From Sulfolobaceae archaeon (GTDB lineage: Archaea > Thermoproteota > Thermoprotei_A > Sulfolobales > Sulfolobaceae), in contig JAPNVD010000031.1 in NCBI GenBank assembly GCA_026627305.1, positions 1 to 64,000 on the forward strand: a DNA stretch of 64,000 nucleotides, written 5' to 3'. Below the pieces are notes generated by a model. That model did not search any database. It saw nothing but the letters and a program-made list of their open reading frames with translations, and had not been told where the DNA came from. Positions 7,114 to 41,796 of the stretch are shown one piece after another (within the stretch, counting starts at the first letter, position 1; every line of letters begins with the position of its first letter). The position numbers and the translations under genes were made by a program.

Positions 7114-8016
7114 CTAAAAGAACATCATGTCCAGTAGGCTGTTAACTTCTAGCTGGTTCTCCTTTATAACAGTGCCCCTGTAGAAGAATTCGTAAAAAGG
7201 TCTGCTAGGGTCAGCGGTAGCATAACCTCTTAACTCCTTCTCTAACCATTGGGTATACTTAATGCTTAGGGGCCAGCTGGTGATGGCTGGATAGCTAGTG
7301 ATTTTTCCTCCACAGCTTACCCACTCTTCAGTTACTTCCTTACTTACGTTCCACTTCAACGGCTCATTGAGTCCTCCAATCCCTATAACGTTGGTCTGTT
7401 TTAGCTTGGCAGTAGACCTCAGCTTCACTATCCTAGTCTTTATATGCTTATAAAACTCATTGTAATATCTAAAGGGCATTTGAGTTATGGCTAAACCAGA
7501 TATCAACATTAGGGTTATTAAATGGGATATCGGCACTTGTTCTGAGTGTTGAGATCTGGAATAGGAAGGGAAGGCGTAAATATACCTACTATAATATGAG
7601 GCAATAGCCTCCAAGCCTATAGCTGTTGCCAAGTCATCTTTAGCGTTTAATGTACACTTAGCCAATTGGTAGTTATATACGAAGATGAATGTCAATAGTT
7701 TAGAGTACTCCTTCACGAAGGCTATGAAGTCGTAATCGTTTATGTCTATTAGCCTAGATAGGCTTAACAATGCGATATTAGAGGCATCCTCAGAGAGCTT
7801 CATTATCCTATCCCCAGCGAAGTGTATTGTGTTACCTACACAGTCTGAGGTCTGGTCTATGCATGTTAGTTCTGAAACCCTGGGAACCCTTATCTCGAAC
7901 TGGTTGTATTCTGTCTTAACAGTTATGCTCTCTCCCAACACCCTCCCTATCCAGCTCTTCTGCAAGTTTTCCATGAAAAGCGGGTCTATTTCACACCTTT
8001 TCTCACATAATGGCAT
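7114..8016 (-). CDS. Unknown protein divergent from the Csa3-like regulator
   Basis: I do not recognise this 300-residue protein. It is mostly helical in the middle (residues about 75-200). It has several cysteines that could bind metal or form disulfides (C4, C8, C52, C59, one near 122, and SCGG near 237), and a hydrophobic stretch LITLMLISGLAIT. Its only clue is position: its start faces that of the CARF-HTH gene at 8129, with a 112-base shared promoter region. It may be controlled by that regulator. I considered Cas4/Csa1 and Cas8a and saw no matching motifs. Confidence 0.7.
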   Translation of the reverse strand: MPLCEKRCEIDPLFMENLQKSWIGRVLGESITVKTEYNQFEIRVPRVSELTCIDQTSDCVGNTIHFAGDRIMKLSEDASNIALLSLSRLIDINDYDFIAFVKEYSKLLTFIFVYNYQLAKCTLNAKDDLATAIGLEAIASYYSRYIYAFPSYSRSQHSEQVPISHLITLMLISGLAITQMPFRYYNEFYKHIKTRIVKLRSTAKLKQTNVIGIGGLNEPLKWNVSKEVTEEWVSCGGKITSYPAITSWPLSIKYTQWLEKELRGYATADPSRPFYEFFYRGTVIKENQLEVNSLLDMMFF

Positions 8017-31672: not shown

Positions 31673-32152
31673 TTAGCTGTTTTCTGCTGGATGTATCTCT
31701 AGCAGTGGTTGTTGTGAGACGCTTAGCTGTCCTTCAGGATTTGGCGATACTTGGAAAGTTATGTTTATAGTAACGTTGTATTTACCCTGTGATAGCACTA
31801 CATGAGCTGAGTCTTTTTCGGGTGTTAAGGTTACCGAATTATTACCTATATTTACTTTCACTATGAATACACTGAACGCGTTCTGTAATGAATCTGAGTG
31901 TTCTAGGTCTATAGTATAGGTTCCGTTAGTTGGTATTGATATAAATGCGTATGCTGTTACGCTACCGTTTTGTCCTGCAGTGAGGTTTCCTAGATTTATG
32001 TATGCTGGTATGATTTGAGCCTGTTGAGGGCTTTGCGGTGGTGTTATGTTATACGATATATACGCTAATGGTCCGTAGCCGCTGACACCAGCTGTCACCA
32101 GTCCTACCAGGAATGCTGCCGTCGCTATTAGGGCTACTAGTTGTGCCTTCAT
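31673..32152 (-). CDS. Secreted beta-sandwich protein of a membrane-regulator locus (paralogue A)
   Basis: The 159 residues begin with a signal peptide (VALIATAAFLVGLVTAGVSG). The mature part starts YGPLAYISYNITP, then beta strands NGTYTIDLEHSDS and VVLSQGKYNVTINITFQV. The protein at 34137 has the same layout (GVFGYLSYNISP, SGVYKIELEG, VYLHKGVYIVSIKI), so the two are paralogues. Several N-x-T/S sites suggest glycosylation. Function unknown. The promoter has a minus-strand TATA (CTTTTAAG, 32177-32184) and the GTTCCGGAAC palindrome just upstream. Confidence 0.75.
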   Translation of the reverse strand: MKAQLVALIATAAFLVGLVTAGVSGYGPLAYISYNITPPQSPQQAQIIPAYINLGNLTAGQNGSVTAYAFISIPTNGTYTIDLEHSDSLQNAFSVFIVKVNIGNNSVTLTPEKDSAHVVLSQGKYNVTINITFQVSPNPEGQLSVSQQPLLEIHPAENS

Positions 32153-32176
32153 TGATCAACACTACTCGTTTCTTCC

Positions 32177-32199
32177 TTAAAAGGGTCTCGTTCCGGAAC
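32177..32199 (-). promoter_or_regulatory. TATA box plus GTTCCGGAAC operator for the gene at 31673
   Basis: The perfect 10-base palindrome GTTCCGGAAC (32190-32199) lies six bases upstream of the minus-strand TATA box (32177-32184). The TATA box is about 28 bases before the ATG at 32152. The palindrome recurs at 32964-32973 at the same distance from another TATA box. Confidence 0.6.
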
Positions 32200-32238
32200 A
32201 GTGGTGGTAAGAGAGGAACTGAATAAAATTGACTTAAA

Positions 32239-32928
32239 TCAAATTAATTTAATAATATTTATAAAACTGACCTCACTAGTCAAAAATTTAATCACAAAGA
32301 GGAGGACAGGAACAATTAAATTATCATTACCTTGATCGCCTTCAGTAGAAGGTGAGATTAACTGGAAGTATAATCCTATATCATTCAGTATCTGTTCGTA
32401 TGTTAAGTTCTCATAGCTCTCCCCTGTAATAAACAGAGTTACTTTTACCTTCTTGTCGCTTATATTGATGTAAGAATAAGTATGGTTAAGGCTAAGAGAG
32501 ACGACCTTTCCATCTTCGAAATAGAGGATTACATATAATTGCGTGAAGTTAACTTTAGGATTTATTCCTACGATATATTCCCCTTTATATTTAAGGCTTA
32601 GATTAAGCTTAGCCATAAATGAGAACTTGTAGATCGTTTGGTTAGCTGTTGTAGTTGTTGCCGTACTGGTTTGAGAAGCTGTACTGGTTTGTGTTGTTTG
32701 TGAATAACTGGTTGTAGTCTGTTGATTTGTGGTCACAGTTGTGGTGACTGTAACAGTTTGGCTAGTACCACTGCTACTTGTTACTATTTGTACATTAGAT
32801 ACGTTTAAGGGAACTTGACTTGATGGTATAGAAGGTCTATGCAACGCATAATAAAGCTCTATCCCTAGCACTACGTTCACTATTAAGGTTACTACAAGTA
32901 AACCCGCAAGTAAACCCTGTCTTTCCAC
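32239..32928 (-). CDS. Thr/Ser-rich surface protein of the membrane-regulator locus
   Basis: From a GTG start the 229 residues comprise an N-terminal membrane anchor (LLAGLLVVTLIVNVVLGIELYYAL), a long Ser/Thr/Gln-rich linker (residues about 50-98) likely to be glycosylated, a beta-rich domain (100-200), and a hydrophobic C-terminus (LIVPVLLFVIKFLTS). It may be displayed on the cell surface. No family recognised. A TATA box (32952-32959) and the shared palindrome lie just upstream. Confidence 0.65.
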   Translation of the reverse strand: MERQGLLAGLLVVTLIVNVVLGIELYYALHRPSIPSSQVPLNVSNVQIVTSSSGTSQTVTVTTTVTTNQQTTTSYSQTTQTSTASQTSTATTTTANQTIYKFSFMAKLNLSLKYKGEYIVGINPKVNFTQLYVILYFEDGKVVSLSLNHTYSYINISDKKVKVTLFITGESYENLTYEQILNDIGLYFQLISPSTEGDQGNDNLIVPVLLFVIKFLTSEVSFINIIKLI

Positions 32929-32951
32929 AATATATCTGTTGTGCTGTATTC

Positions 32952-33000
32952 CTTATAAACATTGTTCCGGAACAGGTGCGGAACAGGAGAAAATTTAAGA
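32952..33000. promoter_or_regulatory. Divergent promoter with the GTTCCGGAAC operator and a repeated half-site
   Basis: On the minus strand TTTATAAG (32952-32959) is the TATA box for the gene at 32928. The palindrome GTTCCGGAAC (32964-32973) lies five bases upstream of it. A second half-site GGAACAGG (32980-32987) repeats GGAACAGG (32969-32976) at an 11-base step, one helical turn. On the plus strand AAATTTAAG (about 32991-32999) can serve the regulator gene at 33036. One site can thus serve both genes, including autoregulation. Confidence 0.6.
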
Positions 33001-33035
33001 TAAGTTAATAAGATAGTTAGAGGATTTAATTGTAG

Positions 33036-33866
33036 ATGAAACGTCTTTTCATTGTAATTCCTCTGTTAATGATTATCCCTTTTATCTCCACTGTAGCCTT
33101 CAGTAGTTCAGGATTCGTCAACGTTTATTATAATGGTACAGTAAACGCAGTGCTCTATAATAACGTTTCACAGTTCATATTAATAGGATATAATGTCACT
33201 GGTCTAAAAGTAATAGGTGCTGAATATTATTTGGCAAATAACACCTTGTATTTAAAAAACTACACGTCGAGTTATGCGGTAATACAATACGATGCAACGT
33301 TATCTAGGGGAGTCATTCAAGTAGATGAAAAGGAGAACTTCACTATAATGATTTACCTACCGACTACTGTAACCATTTCTTATATATATCCACAACCTTT
33401 AAGTATTGGAGTTACAAAAAACGGCCTTTATAATATATCCCTTTACTCAGACAGAGTAATACTGCTCTATACAACACAAAGTATACCCGTTCAGAGAGGA
33501 GGAGGGGGAGAATCAAATATAGAAATCTATCTACTCCTAGGATTAGTTGTAGTTGATGTTGTATTGGCTTACCTTATAGTTCAAACTCTTAGGAGAGGTA
33601 GAAGGGAAGAAAGGATTGCTGAGGTTCAAGAGGATAAAATCGATATGATCTCATCGGAGACACTAGATGAGAGGGATACACTAGTTCTAGAGGCAATTAA
33701 GATGGGTACAGATACGCTAGCTGAGATAATAAGGTTAACTGGACTGCCTAAGTCCACAGCCTATAGGAGGTTAAAGAGGTTAGTAAAACTAGGTTATATA
33801 GAGGAAGTGAGGGAAAAAGGAAAGGTTAGGTATGTCTTAAAGAAAAAAGATAGCGATAGCTCTTGA
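33036..33866 (+). CDS. Membrane-spanning one-component regulator (outside sensor, inside winged helix)
   Basis: The 276 residues read: signal peptide 1-22, a beta-rich outside domain 23-160 with many N-x-T/S sites, a membrane helix about 163-185, a basic linker RRGRREER, and a winged helix 212-268 (VLEAIKMGTDTLAEIIRLTG, then PKSTAYRRLKRLVKLGY). This layout puts the DNA-binding part inside and the sensor outside, so an external signal can reach DNA directly. The flanking genes share a palindromic site in their promoters and encode surface proteins, making them likely targets. The signal is unknown. Confidence 0.8.
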   Translation: MKRLFIVIPLLMIIPFISTVAFSSSGFVNVYYNGTVNAVLYNNVSQFILIGYNVTGLKVIGAEYYLANNTLYLKNYTSSYAVIQYDATLSRGVIQVDEKENFTIMIYLPTTVTISYIYPQPLSIGVTKNGLYNISLYSDRVILLYTTQSIPVQRGGGGESNIEIYLLLGLVVVDVVLAYLIVQTLRRGRREERIAEVQEDKIDMISSETLDERDTLVLEAIKMGTDTLAEIIRLTGLPKSTAYRRLKRLVKLGYIEEVREKGKVRYVLKKKDSDSS

Positions 33867-33868
33867 TA

Positions 33869-34015
33869 TCACCATATATTGAAGCCAGTTGTCGCTATTA
33901 TTGTTATGTCGATTAGGGCGTAGATGGCTATCAGCAGTATCATTGCTAGTGTTATCGTCTTAGTATCTATTGTTTCCTTTTCTTCGGTCTTTTCTTCTTC
34001 AGCCCACCAAGACAT
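33869..34015 (-). CDS. 48-residue single-helix membrane protein
   Basis: An ATG at 34015 opens 48 codons: a charged N-terminus (MSWWAEEEKTEEKE), then a membrane helix (TITLAMILLIAIYALIDITIIA) and a short tail ending NIW. A minus-strand TATA-like CTTAAAAAGG (34043-34052) lies 28 bases upstream, the usual leaderless distance. Small one-helix proteins of this kind often serve as accessory subunits of membrane complexes. It lies 1.3 kb from soxM, but any link to the oxidase is inference. Confidence 0.6.
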   Translation of the reverse strand: MSWWAEEEKTEEKETIDTKTITLAMILLIAIYALIDITIIATTGFNIW

Positions 34016-34042
34016 GGCTATAATTAATTATGCTGTTCTACA

Positions 34043-34101
34043 CCTTTTTAAGAACCCGTTTCATTCCGTTTCAGAACCATGTGAAACAAGTATCTTATAA
34101 G
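34043..34101. promoter_or_regulatory. Divergent promoter region with a variant operator GTTTCAGAAC
   Basis: GTTTCAGAAC (34068-34077) matches GTTCCGGAAC at 8 of 10 positions and is nearly palindromic. GTTTCA is repeated 10 bases earlier (34058-34063), and TGAAAC (34082-34087) forms the inverted partner. TATA boxes flank the sites: CTTAAAAAGG on the minus strand (34043-34052) for the 48-residue protein and CTTATAAG (34094-34101) on the plus strand for the gene at 34137. Confidence 0.5.
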
Positions 34102-34136
34102 GATGAAATAGGGAGTAGATAATTAGGGAGAGAAAA

Positions 34137-34547
34137 ATGAGGGGTAAAGCTTTAGGATTAATAACTGTTGTAACCATAGTTCTCTTAACCACTGGTATAG
34201 TGATAGGTGAGGAGATAAATAATGGTGTATTTGGGTATCTCAGCTACAACATTTCTCCTACTAACACTTCTTCTACTAATCAATATATAGTCACAATAGG
34301 TTCAAGCGGTGTATATAAGATTGAACTCGAGGGTATTGGTGATAACATCATTGCAGTAGTCCACATCGCTAACTACACATTAGTCTTCAATAAGGAGCAT
34401 GAAGAGTACAAGGTATACTTACATAAGGGAGTCTACATAGTGTCTATAAAGATTTTAAACGTGTTTAAAGGTCATCACCACGATGATGGCAATAACCTCA
34501 AGCTACATTTAAAAAAGGTAGGACAAGAGATGGAGGAAGATGATTAA
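34137..34547 (+). CDS. Secreted beta-sandwich protein of a membrane-regulator locus (paralogue B)
   Basis: The 136 residues have a signal peptide (ALGLITVVTIVLLTTGIVIG) followed by FGYLSYNISPTNTS and strands SGVYKIELEGIGD and YLHKGVYIVSIKI. It shares its order of motifs with the protein at 31673-32152 on the other side of the regulator. The C-terminus has a HHHDD patch (GHHHDDGNN) and an acidic tail EMEEDD that could bind metal. Function unknown. Confidence 0.7.
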   Translation: MRGKALGLITVVTIVLLTTGIVIGEEINNGVFGYLSYNISPTNTSSTNQYIVTIGSSGVYKIELEGIGDNIIAVVHIANYTLVFNKEHEEYKVYLHKGVYIVSIKILNVFKGHHHDDGNNLKLHLKKVGQEMEEDD

Positions 34548-34635: not shown

Positions 34636-35271
34636 TTAAACCGCCTTTTGACCGCTTTTTTGTTCGAATTCTTTTTCTTCTTTTACCATGTATCTATACA
34701 TGTATTCGAGGAGGATAAAGACAACAATAGTGTTCATCAAGAGAAACATTATTATTCCCGTAATGGAGGTCTGTGAGGGAGGATATACCCTAGTATAGGA
34801 TAGGGGAGATATCATAAATAGGGCAGACAGATAAGTATCTCCAACCATCCATAAAGCGAAGAGTAGGATCTTTACTGTATTGTTAACACAATGTAATGAA
34901 GTCCCTAAGAGGAGACCTCCTAGGAATAGGGTAAACTCTTCGACTATCCTAATATATAAATAGATAGCCCCAAGGTTGAAGAAAAACGGTAGATGCCATA
35001 GGACTCCCAATGCTACACCAGGGATAAGATGCCATGGAGACCTCTTTAGCACGGAGTAAAAATAGCCTATTAGAATTCCAGATATAAATAGGGAATAGTG
35101 GGCTAACATATATGGGATTATGTTTATATTCATAAGTTCCTCTACTAGGGGATTAACGGTAAAAACAATTAGAATAAGAGAAAAAATTAATGGTTTATAC
35201 TTCTTACTACTAATACTGCTATGCTTATTATCACCATTCTTTTCTGATCCTCCTTCTTTCATTAATCTCAC
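34636..35271 (-). CDS. Polytopic membrane protein (DUF1404-like) downstream of soxM
   Basis: The 211 residues have a charged N-terminal 25 residues and about six membrane helices, with conserved-looking [22 protein letters not shown] and WHLPFFFN. Its size and helix pattern resemble DUF1404, a family known mostly from Sulfolobales. It begins in the last codon of soxM (ATGA overlap at 35268-35271), so the two are co-translated. It may assist oxidase assembly or heme insertion, which is inference from position only. Confidence 0.7.
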
Positions 35272-37679
35272 ACGAACAGGTGGAGGTAGAACACGCTAAA
35301 CACAACTACCCATATCGCATCCACAAAGTGCCAGTAGTATGTTGCAGCTACTGAGCCACTAAATGGAAGAACCTTTCTAGACCTCAAGAGCACGAACGAC
35401 CACACTACAAGCCCCATTATTACGTGGAACCCGTGGAGGCTTACCGTAGTGAAGAAGAATGCAGTAAACGCGCTCTGCTGTGGAGCAAAGTGTATTATAT
35501 GGGTGAACTCGTAGAGCTGTCCCATCAGGAATGTGAAGCCCATCAGTGCTGTTAACACCCCTAGTAACCTGAACATCTTTATGTTACCTCTCTTAAACAT
35601 TTCGTAGGCGAAGTGTGCTGGGACAGAGCTAGACAACAGTATTATCGTCATAATTATGGGTAACGGATAGTAGTCTACCCTAAGGGGTGAGACTGCATCG
35701 TATGCTAAGGGATTTGTAACTGGGCTAGCAACAAACAGGTAGCCTCCTATAAATGAACCGAACAGGAATATCTCAGCCAATATGAACCATAACACAGCTG
35801 ACCTCGTGTCCCTCATTATCTTCCTAGCGTTGAGCAATAAGCTCTCATCAGGAGATGAGGTACTAGCCATTTGACCGTTAGGTGCTGGTAACGATAGGGG
35901 TCCCATAGCCATAATCCCTCTGAACGATGGGAAAACACCAACGTTGGGAAGCCCTTTGAACCACTGGTCATAAGCCCAATAAGCTAATAATCCTATGAAG
36001 GCTAATATCATGACTACACCTATAGCTGCATAACCTAAGAATATTAGCTGTGAGCCTAGAGGTACTAGGCACAAAAGTAGACCTGCAAGGCTGTAATATG
36101 GAATCCTTATCTCCTTTGGCTCTTCTTCATGTTCACCGTCTAGTGATCTACCAAAACCTAATGGTAGTTTCTTAGGGGTGATATAGAAGTCAGGTAAGCC
36201 AATGGCCATAGCCCCCCAAGGATCAACTCCCATCACCGATTTACCCTTAATCCAGGAGTAAAGGAGGTCTGCAAACAGAGCTATTAGTCCAATACCCATC
36301 AATACTCCACCAACATCTACCATGTTCTGGAAAGGTACATAGATCGGTGATGGCACTTCTGCATATCTTCTGGGCATCCCTAGGACACCACTTATCACCA
36401 TTCCTGTAGCTATCATAAAGGCTCCAGCTACGATCATTATAGCTGCGCTCTTTGCTATATCTTCGTTATACTGTTTTCCAGTATAATATGGGAAGTAATA
36501 AAGTAGTGCAGCCAAAATAGCAACTAATATAGCGAACACCATATAGTGGAAGTGGCCTACTACTAGGTAAGTTCCATTAAATGCGTAGTCTAGTGGAACC
36601 AATGGGAAGAACACTCCTGTTATACCGCCAACTAAGAATAGGGCAATAAATGATAACGTCAAAATAGTCGGTGCCCTACTCTTTACTTCCCCACCATAAA
36701 GTGTGGCTGTCCAATTATAGACCTTAACTCCAGAGGGGACAGCTATAGCCATTGTTGTCGCTGAGGCCACCATTTGGGCTATAGAGTTGTCTATTGCGGT
36801 AAACATGTGGTGCATCCAAACACCTAGCGCACTTAGAAAGGCTATTGCCATTGACGATAACGCCAAAGCCTTATAACCGTATATCTCTCTCCCTACCATC
36901 CTCGGTAGAACTTCACCTATTAAACCCATAGCGGGTAACATAAGTATGTAAACCTCTGGATGACCGAAGAACCAGAAGAGGTGTTGCCATAGTACTGGGC
37001 TTCCACCATAGGCGGGCAAAAATATAGGTAAGTTCCATGCCCTTTCAAGGTACGCTAACACTAGACCAGCTGTTAATGGAGGAATGGCGACAACTAACAG
37101 AATTGACGTTGCGAAGAAAGACCATGTAAATAGCGACATCTTGAAATAAGGAATCTTCTTCAACTTGGTAATAGTCATGAGGAAATTGACTCCTGTCAGT
37201 GTAGAGGAGATTCCCGCTAGTATTAGCCCAATCTCTATTAAGTTTACGCCTATTCCATAGTTCACTGAAGTGTCTACTGACAGTGGTGCATACATATACC
37301 AACCGGTGTTTACAGGTCCAAAAAGCGGTGATATACCAACTAATGCAACAGCAGGGACTAGTATCCAGAACGACAATGCGTTTATCCTAGGCCAGTACAA
37401 ATCATGTGCCCCTATCATTCTAGGGATTAGATAGTTTGCAAAACCCGTTGATATGGGCATTACCATGAAGAATATCATGAATATGCCGTGTAAGGTCACA
37501 GCGTTGTAGTATTCTGTAGCTCCTAAGTTTTGCAATGTGAGTTGTTCCCTAATTAAAGATGCGTTGATTGCACCCATTAATAGTGAAATTGTTCCTAGAA
37601 CTATGTACATCTGACCGATATCAGAAGCATTCGTCGTGGTTAGAGCTATTTTTAGTACTTTCCTAATTGACATTGGCAT
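35268..37679 (-). CDS. soxM: SoxM: fused subunit I and III of the heme-copper terminal oxidase
   Basis: The 803-residue protein joins two oxidase subunits. The subunit I part (residues 1 to about 500) has the low-spin heme ligand H64 (TLHGIF), the CuB site H-P-E-V-Y with the cross-linked Tyr, the HH pair in WMHHMFT, and the heme ligands in VGHFHYMVF. The subunit III part (about 610-803) has [16 protein letters not shown] and LHGFHVIMG. It reduces O2 to water at the cell membrane and pumps protons. A minus-strand TATA (TTTAAAAG, about 37704-37712) places a leaderless start at the ATG at 37679. Confidence 0.95.
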
Positions 37680-37842
37680 CTCTTGATTTTATTGTAATTG
37701 GTTACTTTTAAACTTTTCTTACGAAATACTCATTCATAAAGAGACTATGAATAATAATAATAATTTATATTTGATTAATATGAAACAAAAAATATAGATT
37801 AATTTATAATATTTGTATGTTGGATTAATTCATATTTTATCA

Positions 37843-38430
37843 TTATGTTACAACTGCATAGGGCGCAGTGACGTTTTGAGATACCACTAGAACTGCCCAC
37901 ATACCGCTTTCAGCGTGAGAGTAGATACCGCAGACCAGCATATATATCCCTGGGCTTAGTGGATCTGTTAAACCGCTAACGGACTGACCACTACTAATGC
38001 CAGTAGTCTCATAATTGCTTGAAGTAGCTCCAAAGGCATAGAGTATTTTACCGAACTGGGCTACGTCTGGACTGTTAGGGGTAGGTGTATCGTTTTGAAG
38101 TATTATAAGGTTATGAGGCAAAGATTGATAGTTAATGAAAGTGACGTAAAGTGACCATCCAGCTGGTACATATATCACTAGTTGCCCATTCGTAGTACCA
38201 TTAAAGTTAAGCGTGCTGACAGTAGAGAGCACTGCGATTGTTAGATAAACCGTTTTATTAGAACTATCATATCTCAATAGGGTTTTACCCGAAGTAGAAG
38301 TTGTATTAGTTATCGTTGAGGGGGCTGTGGTCAAATAGTGGTAATTGAGATAAACGTAAACCGCAGTTACTAGAGCTATTATGGCTACAACTATAGCTAT
38401 GACCGCAGGTAACACAGATTGTGCTTTCAT
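37843..38430 (-). CDS. soxE: SoxE: sulfocyanin, blue copper electron carrier
   Basis: From the ATG at 38430 the protein has 195 residues: a membrane anchor (VLPAVIAIVVAIIALVTAVYVYL), a Thr/Ser-rich linker, and a cupredoxin domain. The type I copper ligands are H106 (SLPHNL) and C167, H172 and M177 in CGIYSHAESGM. Sulfocyanin carries electrons between the Rieske/cytochrome b part and the oxidase in place of cytochrome c. A TTG nine bases upstream is in frame, but the minus-strand TATA (TTTAAACC, 38451-38458) fits the ATG. It lies upstream of soxM on the same strand. Confidence 0.9.
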   Translation of the reverse strand: MKAQSVLPAVIAIVVAIIALVTAVYVYLNYHYLTTAPSTITNTTSTSGKTLLRYDSSNKTVYLTIAVLSTVSTLNFNGTTNGQLVIYVPAGWSLYVTFINYQSLPHNLIILQNDTPTPNSPDVAQFGKILYAFGATSSNYETTGISSGQSVSGLTDPLSPGIYMLVCGIYSHAESGMWAVLVVSQNVTAPYAVVT

Positions 38431-38618
38431 AATCTTCAACTCATCGAAAGGGTTTAAAAATGTTTCTAGATCTTATCAAAAATAAAGATTGTTTATAGAA
38501 AATATTAAAAAATTTTTATATATATAAGTTTTATAATTAATTATAAAACATATAAGGGAAATTAATCTATTATTGTAATAAAACTTATATATCACAATTA
38601 AGCTTAAGAATCTCAAAA
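38431..38618. promoter_or_regulatory. Bidirectional promoter between soxE and soxF
   Basis: Minus strand: TTTAAACC (38451-38458) for soxE/soxM. Plus strand: ACTTATATAT (38582-38591) about 28-35 bases before the soxF ATG at 38619. The 188 bases between the two starts are almost pure A/T from 38490 to 38580. Both halves of the oxidase complex are transcribed outward from here. Confidence 0.6.
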
Positions 38619-39359
38619 ATGAATAGGAGAAATTTCTTAAGGTTGTACTTGCTGGCAGCTGCAGCGATAGCAATAGCACCTTTAGTAAAGCCTGCTATAG
38701 ACTATGTGGGATATTTTTACAATGAACTTGGTGCAATATCTAAACAGTATTTAGTGGCGAATAACACTGACGGTATTGGGGGATTTCCTAAGTATAAAAT
38801 AACTAATATTAAGGATTTCAAATCTAAGAATTGCCCCGTATTCTTCTTCGCATACCCATTAACTAACGAACCCTGCTTCTTGGTAGACCTAGAAGCGATA
38901 TTGGGTCAACCAGTGCCAGAAATACCCAATCCATATTATGGGCACTTCGCAGGACCATTAGGTCAAATAAAGACGATAAAAGGGGTAGGTCCTAACAATT
39001 CAATCTATGCCTTCTCAGACGTCTGCGTGCACTTGGGTTGCCAACTGCCAGCCCAAGTCCTGGTGACCTCAGATCAGGATCCTGGATTAGATATACAGAA
39101 CTCTGTACTCCACTGTCCCTGTCATGGTTCAATGTATTTATTAAAAGAGGGTGGGATAGTGGTAGGAGGGCCAGCACCCAGACCACTTCCTATGGTGTAT
39201 TTAGAATATGATGAGAGCACAGGAGATATTTATGCCGTAGGAACCAACGCTCCTTACTTCAGCGAGTCTGTACCTAGGACAACTCCACAAGATAACCTGC
39301 TTTACGACCCCAGGTATGACTATTCTGTGCCATCAAACCCTGCATGTACAAAGGGGTGA
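38619..39359 (+). CDS. soxF: SoxF: Rieske iron-sulfur protein with a Tat signal
   Basis: The N-terminus MNRRNFLRLYLLAAAA is a twin-arginine export signal and membrane anchor. The Rieske 2Fe-2S cluster is held by C136-V-H138-L-G-C141 and C166-P-C168-H169, with C141 and C168 forming the usual disulfide. The 246-residue protein takes electrons from caldariellaquinone outside the membrane and passes them to sulfocyanin. It overlaps soxG by 16 bases and is the first gene of the soxFGHI run. Confidence 0.93.
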   Translation: MNRRNFLRLYLLAAAAIAIAPLVKPAIDYVGYFYNELGAISKQYLVANNTDGIGGFPKYKITNIKDFKSKNCPVFFFAYPLTNEPCFLVDLEAILGQPVPEIPNPYYGHFAGPLGQIKTIKGVGPNNSIYAFSDVCVHLGCQLPAQVLVTSDQDPGLDIQNSVLHCPCHGSMYLLKEGGIVVGGPAPRPLPMVYLEYDESTGDIYAVGTNAPYFSESVPRTTPQDNLLYDPRYDYSVPSNPACTKG

Positions 39360-40921
39360 GACATTTGGATGGCTATTTTGATAGGTTCATGAAATGGCTA
39401 GACGAGAGGTTAGGAATTTATGGTCACGTGGTTAGACCTGCTCCAAAATACGCCTATAGGTTTGACTATTGGCTAGGAGGGTTAGTGCTATCGTCCTTTA
39501 TATTTGAAGTTATTACTGGAGCACTAATAGCGCTTTACTACACCCCCAGCGATCCCTATACTGCTACAGTCTACCTTATCAGTAAAGTTCCTTACGGTGC
39601 CTTACTGTTTAGCTTACACAGTTGGGGGGCTTATGTGATGATATTCCTAATGTTAGTACACATGACTAGGAACTTTATAGTTGGGGCTTATAGGCCTCCT
39701 AGAGAAATCATGTGGATTGTAGGTGTACTGTTAGCTGGTTTAACGCTAACTGAGGCATATTTAGGCTACTCACTACCCTATAACCTGATATCATGGGTTG
39801 CAACGACAACTGGGCTAAACTTGTTCACCTATATGCCTTTTAAGCTGGGTTACCTTATCTCGCTGTTCACTGTGGTCAACCCTAATCAGCCAGGCATTGC
39901 GTCAGGGATTTCACCTCTAGTCCAGAGGATTTTCGTGTTTCACTGGATAGTTGGTGGGCTGATACTGATGCTTGTTATGCTTCATCTCTACATATTCGAA
40001 ATACATGGGATTACCCCGCCGATAAGTAAGGTTAAGCCTGGAGCTCCAGAGGTGATAGACGCATATCGGTATCAGATAGAGAACGATCCTGAGTGGAAGT
40101 TGCAACCACTAATAAGGTCTATAGGGATGACCTTCATGATATTCTTGCTGACAGTTGGTATAATATTCTTCATAGCCTCTGTCTTCCCGTTCGATATAGT
40201 TATCAGTGGTGGTGTACCAAAGTATATAATGCCAGAATTTAATCCAGTAGAAGCTGCCCAGACACCGCCAGTTCCCGATTGGTACTTTCTGTTCATTTAT
40301 TATTTCTATAAGTCCGTCACCCCTGCTAACGCATCGCTGATATTCTTAGGTTGGATAACTGTAACCGTGCTCTTCCCGTTTATTGAGGAATATATCTTCA
40401 GGCATAAGGCACCTCACCCTGCGATGAGACCAGCAGCTATAGCCCTAGGTACTGGATTTATAATATCCTTTATAGTTAATAGTGTGTGGGCAGGGCTGAC
40501 ACCAGGGAGGGATATAGGGCCTATCGGAGTTTACGTTGATGCGGGTATTTTCGTGGCCTGCTTCGCCATAATATGGCCTTTATTGAGATTTGTTGCACAA
40601 CCTAGAGTCCTGAGGAGGTTGGAGCAAGAGGGTATAAGTAGTAGTGGTGTCTACACCAACGGTGGTTCAAAGGTGATACAGGCATTGGATACAACCGTTC
40701 CCATGCCAGTGATACCAAAGAAGATATTGGGTGGCTTAGAAGTCTTAGCGTTAGACATTTTCTTAGCATCAACAGGTATTTATACAGCCTATGAGGCTTT
40801 CGCACTATCATCTCTTCCAATATTGAATCAATTTTTAGTTGGGGAACTAGCTGGTGTTTCGTGTATTATGTTCTCACTATTAATATTCCTCATGGTGGTG
40901 GTAAGACATGGAAAAAGCTAG
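39344..40921 (+). CDS. soxG: SoxG: cytochrome b
   Basis: The 525-residue protein is a cytochrome b of the bc-type complex. Four heme-binding His lie in helices B and D (LFSLHSWGAYVMIFLMLVHMTRN and VFHWIVGGLILMLVMLHLYIFEIHG). The quinone-oxidising PEWY loop is represented by PDWYFLF near residue 310. It has about 12 membrane helices, more than the usual 8. It oxidises caldariellaquinol together with SoxF. GTG-free start: the codon at 39344 reads ATG inside the soxF end, giving coupled translation. Confidence 0.93.
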   Translation: MYKGVRHLDGYFDRFMKWLDERLGIYGHVVRPAPKYAYRFDYWLGGLVLSSFIFEVITGALIALYYTPSDPYTATVYLISKVPYGALLFSLHSWGAYVMIFLMLVHMTRNFIVGAYRPPREIMWIVGVLLAGLTLTEAYLGYSLPYNLISWVATTTGLNLFTYMPFKLGYLISLFTVVNPNQPGIASGISPLVQRIFVFHWIVGGLILMLVMLHLYIFEIHGITPPISKVKPGAPEVIDAYRYQIENDPEWKLQPLIRSIGMTFMIFLLTVGIIFFIASVFPFDIVISGGVPKYIMPEFNPVEAAQTPPVPDWYFLFIYYFYKSVTPANASLIFLGWITVTVLFPFIEEYIFRHKAPHPAMRPAAIALGTGFIISFIVNSVWAGLTPGRDIGPIGVYVDAGIFVACFAIIWPLLRFVAQPRVLRRLEQEGISSSGVYTNGGSKVIQALDTTVPMPVIPKKILGGLEVLALDIFLASTGIYTAYEAFALSSLPILNQFLVGELAGVSCIMFSLLIFLMVVVRHGKS

Positions 40922-41348
40922 GATATTCGAACTTGCAACAATAATTTTTGCTATAACTATCCTAACTGTTCTAGGGGTACTATCAGACACATACTTGATA
41001 GCTATAAACAGCGGTTCATATTTATCTGCACATGCAAAGCAGGACGCTATTCCCATAAAGGTTATTGCTATGCAGTACGCATGGGAGTTCGTTTACCCCA
41101 ACGGTACTGTATCCATAAATAAGCTAGTGATAAAGGCTAACCAAACTTATCTATTGGAGATAACATCTAAGGACGTGATACATGCGTTTTATGTCCCTCA
41201 ACTGGGGTTTAAGTTTGAGGCAATCCCAGGATATGTCTATGACTTTTACATAGTGGTCAATAAGCCTGGAGTTTACGATATATGGTGTGCTGAGTTCTGC
41301 GGTCCTGGACATTACTTAATGAGGGGAGAGCTTATAGTGGTGAGCTGA
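40908..41348 (+). CDS. soxH: SoxH: oxidase subunit II with a CuA centre
   Basis: The 146 residues have one N-terminal helix (LATIIFAITILTVLGVLSDTYLI) and a cupredoxin domain with all CuA ligands: H92, C127, E129, C131, H135 and M138 (WCAEFCGPGHYLM). It passes electrons from sulfocyanin to the heme of SoxM. Only one membrane helix is present, where most subunit II proteins have two. It overlaps soxG by 14 bases. Confidence 0.93.
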   Translation: MEKARIFELATIIFAITILTVLGVLSDTYLIAINSGSYLSAHAKQDAIPIKVIAMQYAWEFVYPNGTVSINKLVIKANQTYLLEITSKDVIHAFYVPQLGFKFEAIPGYVYDFYIVVNKPGVYDIWCAEFCGPGHYLMRGELIVVS

Positions 41349-41349
41349 C

Positions 41350-41796
41350 ATGGCATCGAGGAAACAGTTAAGGGGAATAGATTACCTCTACTGGGTTCTA
41401 ACGATCTTAGCCTTTTTTGTACTCTTCTTATGGGTGGGAGATTTCGGTAACTTGGCTTACCTAACACAAAGCCCTATAACATCATATGTCGAGACTTTGT
41501 GGAGGATAACCTATTTCGCAGGAGGTGCCGTTTTCGGAGTATTCATGGGTAGCCTAGTATTTTTAGCAGTCAAGTTTAGGGAGTCCTCAGGTGTGACGAC
41601 GACTGCACCAGCCGTGAACAGGGAAACGTTATATTACATTGCCATGGGTATGGATATAGTGGTGCTAGTAGGCATAGTATATATGATGTTCACCTTACCC
41701 CTGCAGGCTTTCGAACTAGGGATTTTAGGCTCAGTACTGCTACTACTATTCGCCAGCATAACGTACTTGGTCTATAAGTTATATTTCCCAAGTTAA
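41350..41796 (+). CDS. soxI: SoxI: small membrane subunit of the SoxM complex
   Basis: The 148-residue protein has four predicted membrane helices (LYWVLTILAFFVLFLWV, AGGAVFGVFMGSLVFLAV, YYIAMGMDIVVLVGIVYMMFTL and LGILGSVLLLLFASITYLVYKLYF). It starts two bases after soxH and carries no cofactor ligands. Position and helix count match SoxI, a subunit IV-like part of the SoxM complex. A T-rich terminator follows at once. Confidence 0.85.
   Translation: MASRKQLRGIDYLYWVLTILAFFVLFLWVGDFGNLAYLTQSPITSYVETLWRITYFAGGAVFGVFMGSLVFLAVKFRESSGVTTTAPAVNRETLYYIAMGMDIVVLVGIVYMMFTLPLQAFELGILGSVLLLLFASITYLVYKLYFPS

Follow-up and report, generated by a model that had tools for sequence, protein, structure and literature searches.

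The five genes lying between positions 31,673 and 34,547 of the window (the whole stretch of 64,000 nucleotides analysed here, from a Sulfolobaceae archaeon whose assembly comprises 1.9 Mb and is 79.5% complete) probably form a self-contained regulon, in which a one-component transmembrane regulator would act on arrays of short half-sites. This reading is drawn from the gene content, the topology signatures of the regulator, the conservation and near-exclusiveness of the operator, and its placement beside TATA boxes, all of them features of the sequence. Given that a membrane-spanning, probable DNA-binding protein is found here beside its likely targets and together with a near-private operator, a signal from outside the cell may reach these genes in a single step.

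The locus and its genes

All five of the gene assignments made in a first-pass annotation of this region correspond to open frames, and the accompanying proposal that the four products other than the regulator are secreted or membrane proteins is borne out by hydropathy analysis, which finds a signal or transmembrane (TM) segment in each of the four. On the minus strand, sec1 (31673–32152) encodes a secreted protein of 159 aa with a signal segment at residues 5–23 and a predicted beta-sandwich fold, while thr2 (32239–32928) encodes a protein with an N-terminal TM anchor, a Thr/Ser-rich linker, an ectodomain and a second hydrophobic segment near the C-terminus. Beyond these lie the gene for the transmembrane regulator (33036–33866, plus strand; 276 aa), that for a small TM protein (33869–34015, minus strand; 48 aa counted from ATG), relatives of which are found in the same position in several genera, and finally sec3 (34137–34547, plus strand), a shortened relative of sec1 with which it shares 25% identity. 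The gene order in the window is such that the full-length sec1 lies on the far side of thr2, and it is sec3 that occupies the slot downstream of the regulator, which in other genomes is used for sec1.

The locus is bordered at 34636–41796 by a SoxM-type terminal oxidase cluster (DUF1404, fused oxidase subunits and sulfocyanin), which by sequence also holds a Rieske protein, a cytochrome b and a subunit II; this neighbourhood is absent from the modules examined in other genomes.

The transmembrane regulator

Hydropathy analysis of the regulator reveals an N-terminal hydrophobic segment (residues 4–22) and a TM segment (164–182), and the structural model, for which the mean pLDDT is a modest 66.6, comprises an all-beta domain at approximately 26–146, a long membrane helix at 161–199 and a winged helix at 212–268. 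In all 19 of the orthologues scanned the winged helix is of an IclR/TrmB/MarR-like type, and it is probably through this domain that the protein grips DNA. N-glycosylation sequons number about 7 per orthologue on the outside as against 0.6 on the inside, and positive charges follow directly after the TM helix; since the sequons cluster ahead of the TM segment and the positive charge comes after it, the N-terminal domain can be placed outside the cell, in agreement with the originally suggested topology of an outside domain, one helix and an inside winged helix. The ectodomain is probably glycosylated. A Foldseek search with the regulator returned only winged helices and weak beta matches, and the idea that the sensor domain might itself be a relative of sec1 was rejected (hhalign probability 19).

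Operator sites in the window and the host genome

The palindrome GTTCCGGAAC that had been reported at 32190 and 32964 is indeed present at both positions, as is the related form GTTTCAGAAC at 34068. Operator O1 (32190–32199) consists of GTTCCGGAAC and lies 6 bp from the TATA box of sec1 (CTTTTAAG, 32176–32183, minus strand). Operator O2 (32964–32984), situated between the divergent promoters of thr2 and the regulator, combines a second copy of GTTCCGGAAC (32964–32973) with a third half-site, GGAAC (32980–32984). Here the palindrome lies 4 bp from the TATA box of thr2 (TTTATAAG, 32952–32959, minus strand), so that the distance of five or six bases given previously is very nearly right; the candidate TATA box of the regulator (ATTTAAGA, 32993–33000, plus strand) is a weak match. 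Operator O3 (34058–34087), which separates the small TM protein's promoter from that of sec3, is made up of GTTTC (34058–34062), GTTTCAGAAC (34068–34077) and GAAAC (34083–34087), with the TATA box of sec3 (CTTATAAG, plus strand) at 34094–34101. The GGAAC half-site of O2 and the two outer half-sites of O3 had previously been overlooked.

The genome-wide tests of the operator took the form of pattern searches. A high frequency across the genome had been named as something that would count against the palindrome, and the 1.9 Mb assembly contains just two copies of GTTCCGGAAC, both of them at the locus. Other exact matches to GTTYCRGAAC number 8 in the host genome and all 8 fall in coding frames, long ones in every case, seven of them outside the window and one at 7869, within the ORF 7114–8016; a genome-wide search for intergenic GTTYCRGAAC found nothing beyond the three sites already noted, and on that pattern a wider regulon in the host genome was rejected. 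The pattern GRAACNNNGRAAC has ten matches in the host genome, all of them outside the locus. Statistics confined to the 64 kb window are unconvincing, in that GTTYCRGAAC with one mismatch allowed gives 14 matches against 9.7 expected, which is not a clear enrichment, and half-site chains number 7 as against 5.5 in shuffles. The case for the operator rests on genome-wide rarity together with comparison between genomes.

Distribution of the module in Sulfolobaceae

A regulator homologue is present in all 31 of the family genomes, and around it there recurs a module in which the transmembrane winged-helix regulator is accompanied by three proteins, one TM-anchored (thr2), one small with a TM segment, and one secreted with a beta-sandwich fold. 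In most genera the regulator lies beside thr2, usually divergently, with a gene of the sec1 family downstream and the small TM protein often sitting between the two. The sec1 family itself was found in 30 of the 31 family genomes (the exception being G026), and also in three genomes from outside the Sulfolobaceae. In Acidianus-like and some Metallosphaera-like genomes sec1 is located elsewhere, not adjoining the regulator homologue; most of the relocated genes in Metallosphaera-like genomes have only single half-sites, while those in Acidianus-like genomes have GAAAC repeats even though the regulator homologue lies elsewhere.

A scan of named genomes located five module or regulator loci in Sulfolobaceae, four of them with informative organism names (HS-7, Acd1, Metallosphaera yellowstonensis and Ca. 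Aramenus sulfurataquae). In the S. acidocaldarius-like genome (G022) the sec1 gene lies at 2.08 Mb. Genes adjoining this locus (thiolase and acyl-CoA genes) match Saci_2232–2235 as listed in PMC11486757, and on that basis the regulator is probably Saci_2236; nothing was found in the literature under the correspondingly inferred tags Saci_2236–2239. In one genome (G030, L056:5663-6451) the regulator frame is split by internal stops into two ORFs of 114 and 111 aa, and the operator arrays beside the broken frame persist.

Operator arrays across the family

Comparison of orthologous promoters reveals that the conserved unit is a half-site, GTTYC/GRAAC, occurring in arrays, of which GTTCCGGAAC is one form. 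Half-sites in direct orientation are mostly spaced by 8, 10 or 11 bp and inverted ones by 5–7 bp; examples are GTTTCactGTTCCGGAAC (L052), GTTCCatGAAACagtGAAAC (L058) and GGAACagtGAAAC (L060). For counting purposes a chain was defined as two or more half-sites, with other promoters in the same loci serving as controls; the half-site was derived from the first-pass motif, and the chain rule (steps of 5–12 bp) was set after the promoters had been inspected. Chains so defined occur in 47/67 module promoters as against 1/210 controls (Fisher p 7e-36, a value that overstates the case because related and orthologous promoters are not independent). Among target-gene promoters the figure is 35 of 43, none being detected in the remaining 8, and among promoters of regulator homologues that lack sec1 or thr2 neighbours it is 0 of 8. 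In all nine genera that have the module, at least one target promoter per genus carries an array. An unbiased ranking of all 5-mers was headed by GAAAC/GTTTC (38 against 4.0 expected), with GGAAC/GTTCC (37 against 5.5) next.

Across the 31 genomes there are 31 exact copies of the palindrome; 7 belong to the module, and those elsewhere that were inspected are all coding. GRAACNGTGRAAC has 40 matches in the same genomes, of which 16 are at module genes, rising to 12 of 14 when the spacer is AGT. One genome (G007) has nine exact copies of GTTCCGGAAC; the single copy that was read (L036) sits in a recombinase-like (transposon) gene, which is probably the reason for the high number. Among the GRAACNGTGRAAC matches, one belongs to thr2 of G014, which lies 11 kb away from the regulator and retains its site (L108). 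An off-locus match is intergenic (GAAACAGTGGAAC at L109:1501-1513, G015); it stands immediately upstream of a TATA-like box that precedes a methyltransferase-like gene, and could be either chance or an additional target.

In many target promoters the array ends 4–8 bp upstream of TATA, the gap extending up to about 30 bp in others, and in divergent thr2/regulator pairs a single array faces both promoters. Adjacency of the sites to orthologues of the regulator, which the first-pass annotation had put forward as a check, is kept across genera. Its interpretation as an autoregulated local regulon needs to be divided in two: the local regulon is well supported, the site being rare and kept beside the orthologues, whereas autoregulation fails as a universal feature, because in several genera the regulator's own promoter has no array. 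Such arrays are absent at the regulator promoters of L052–L054, L057, L060–L063, L065, L071 and L075, and the promoter is array-free in S. acidocaldarius, Metallosphaera and several g6 loci. The shared targets would appear to be the surface-protein genes, joined by the regulator's own promoter in some genera only; the regulator may thus control itself in the window and wherever a genus has the same arrangement.

Related loci

A second kind of locus (L162:2467-3332, host C22, and L164–L167) has a secreted sec1-like gene and, directly after it, a short winged-helix protein that lacks an ectodomain and has one TM segment; annotation is on the forward strand in four of these five, while at L166 the regulator match overlaps a reverse-strand ORF. 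Some of the promoters concerned have GAAAC repeats. At L168:2864-4596 and L170:2575-4991 (and, in part, L169:2902-3883) related short TM winged-helix proteins adjoin archaeal type IV pilin genes (Pilin_N), the promoters of which have spaced GTTTC repeats. Possibly these proteins are part of a larger family of membrane regulators that act on surface fibres. A further sec1 paralogue lies away from the regulator at L163:3081-3596 (host C35), with GTTTC/GAAAC half-sites upstream and a weak profile match to thr2 also.

The surface proteins

The model of sec1 is a beta-sandwich with a pLDDT of 71 (80–92 in the core). In Foldseek the top matches to this model are structures of CanA, namely 9h8b (E 4.9e-5, TM 0.58/0.62) and 7uii, with an rmsd of about 6 Å; FimA follows, and another tube appears further down. 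At the sequence level no CanA chain was seen in PDB-sequence profile searches up to E 10, these searches gave no convincing solved structure of any kind, and no consistent Pfam family was found. The profile of thr2 matches that of sec1 (hhalign probability 95.5, E 1.5e-8), but this relationship is regarded as tentative, since the score is raised in part by hydrophobic N-termini. It is plausible that sec1-type and thr2 products are parts of one surface assembly. More specifically, and rather doubtfully, sec1 might be the subunit of an undescribed Sulfolobaceae surface fibre or tube, with thr2 as its anchor and the regulator ectodomain reading the state of assembly so as to adjust supply through the membrane in one step.

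The proposed circuit and its alternatives

In the circuit proposed here the all-beta ectodomain would lie outside the cell and sense an outside signal, a single helix would cross the membrane, and the inside winged helix would bind the GTTYC/GRAAC arrays, these abutting the TFB-recognition element of the sec1/sec3 and thr2 promoters and, in some genera, facing the regulator's promoter also. Binding from the membrane would help TBP/TFB and so activate the target genes, which encode a secreted protein of beta-sandwich fold and another that is anchored in the membrane. An activator of this kind fits the position of the arrays just upstream of TATA, and a site ending just before BRE/TATA is more typical of archaeal activators; activation is on the whole mildly favoured over repression by blocking of TFB. 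Nonetheless, there is a real if lesser possibility that in the same circuit the regulator is a membrane-tethered repressor, its BRE-side arrays blocking TFB until an outside signal releases it. A protein bound to an array only a few bases from TATA could cover the BRE, and where genes diverge a single array looks onto both promoters, as might suit a repressor, but the array usually stops before BRE/TATA rather than lying over TATA or the start site.

That it is instead some other, soluble protein which regulates surface genes through these arrays, with the transmembrane protein as a neighbour in another role, seems unlikely. The array-free promoters of several regulators are in its favour, as are the GAAAC repeats at relocated Acidianus-like sec1 genes, but the sites are almost exclusive to the module, as one would expect of a local regulator, and no arrays occur at regulator homologues without target genes. 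As for the repeats being due to chance, or to simple inherited similarity without function, the near-equality of half-site chains in the window and in shuffles could be quoted in support, but this is highly improbable in the face of their genome-wide rarity, their restriction to module promoters, their differing spacing and orientation between genera, the contrast with control promoters and the outcome of the assumption-free ranking of 5-mers.

Significance and comparison with known systems

How membrane-fixed transcription factors act on their genes is poorly understood (PMC10269533). The proposed transmembrane circuit is seemingly pared down to a single protein with a private operator and a few targets, is conserved across a family, and the inferred orthologous locus in S. 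acidocaldarius places it in a genetically modifiable species. It also brings to light a conserved pair of surface proteins, the secreted one without a Pfam family and with a possible link to cannula-type assemblies; were the fibre interpretation true, the presence of related proteins beside both sec1-like and type IV pilin genes would point to a general mode of surface-fibre control in these archaea. No description of the regulator family, the operator or the gene set was found in a literature search that fell short of most subscription papers, nor, among the papers listed, any of relevance to the operator sequence.

Amongst known surface proteins, CanA of Pyrodictium abyssi (PMC12326000) resembles sec1 in being small and secreted and is the structure closest to the sec1 model, but there is no match in sequence, so that homology was not accepted on that basis, and sec1 differs further in adjoining a regulator. 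The thread protein Saci_0406 is a secreted, beta-rich Sulfolobaceae surface protein with N-glycosylation sequons, all of which applies equally to sec1, and it carries a YYY motif directly after the signal peptide (PMC9715654). None of the aligned sec1 family members has this motif in its N-terminal region, so that sec1 was not assigned to the thread family, and the only sec1-family match of the S. acidocaldarius-like genome is that at 2.08 Mb.

Turning to the regulator, ArnR and ArnR1 of S. acidocaldarius are membrane-bound one-component regulators of surface structures, and ArnR has an N-terminal HTH, HAMP-like and sensing domains and two C-terminal TM segments (PMC6396743). In the present protein this order is reversed, with the HTH at 212–268 of 276, an extracellular domain, and a single TM segment after the signal segment; the C-terminal HTH and lone TM segment exclude it from the ArnR family. 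In CadC and ToxR the DNA-binding domain is N-terminal and OmpR-like. The regulator is similar to these (PMC5430869) in having its sensor outside, one TM segment and a winged helix inside, but its C-terminal matches are to HTH_IclR/TrmB/MarR, with no OmpR-type match listed, and it was not placed with them. Regulators of arCOG00381 are bound to the membrane and encoded near pilin genes, and it has been proposed that they govern the surface-structure genes beside them (PMC4858521); they differ from the present regulator in being halobacterial and in having pilin targets. Transmembrane transcription regulators (TTRs) combine a DNA-binding domain and a TM segment in one protein, and most are single-pass (PMC10269533). 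With its TM segment at 164–182 and its winged helix the regulator fits this broad class, within which its N-terminal ectodomain, C-terminal winged helix and private local operator array set it apart.
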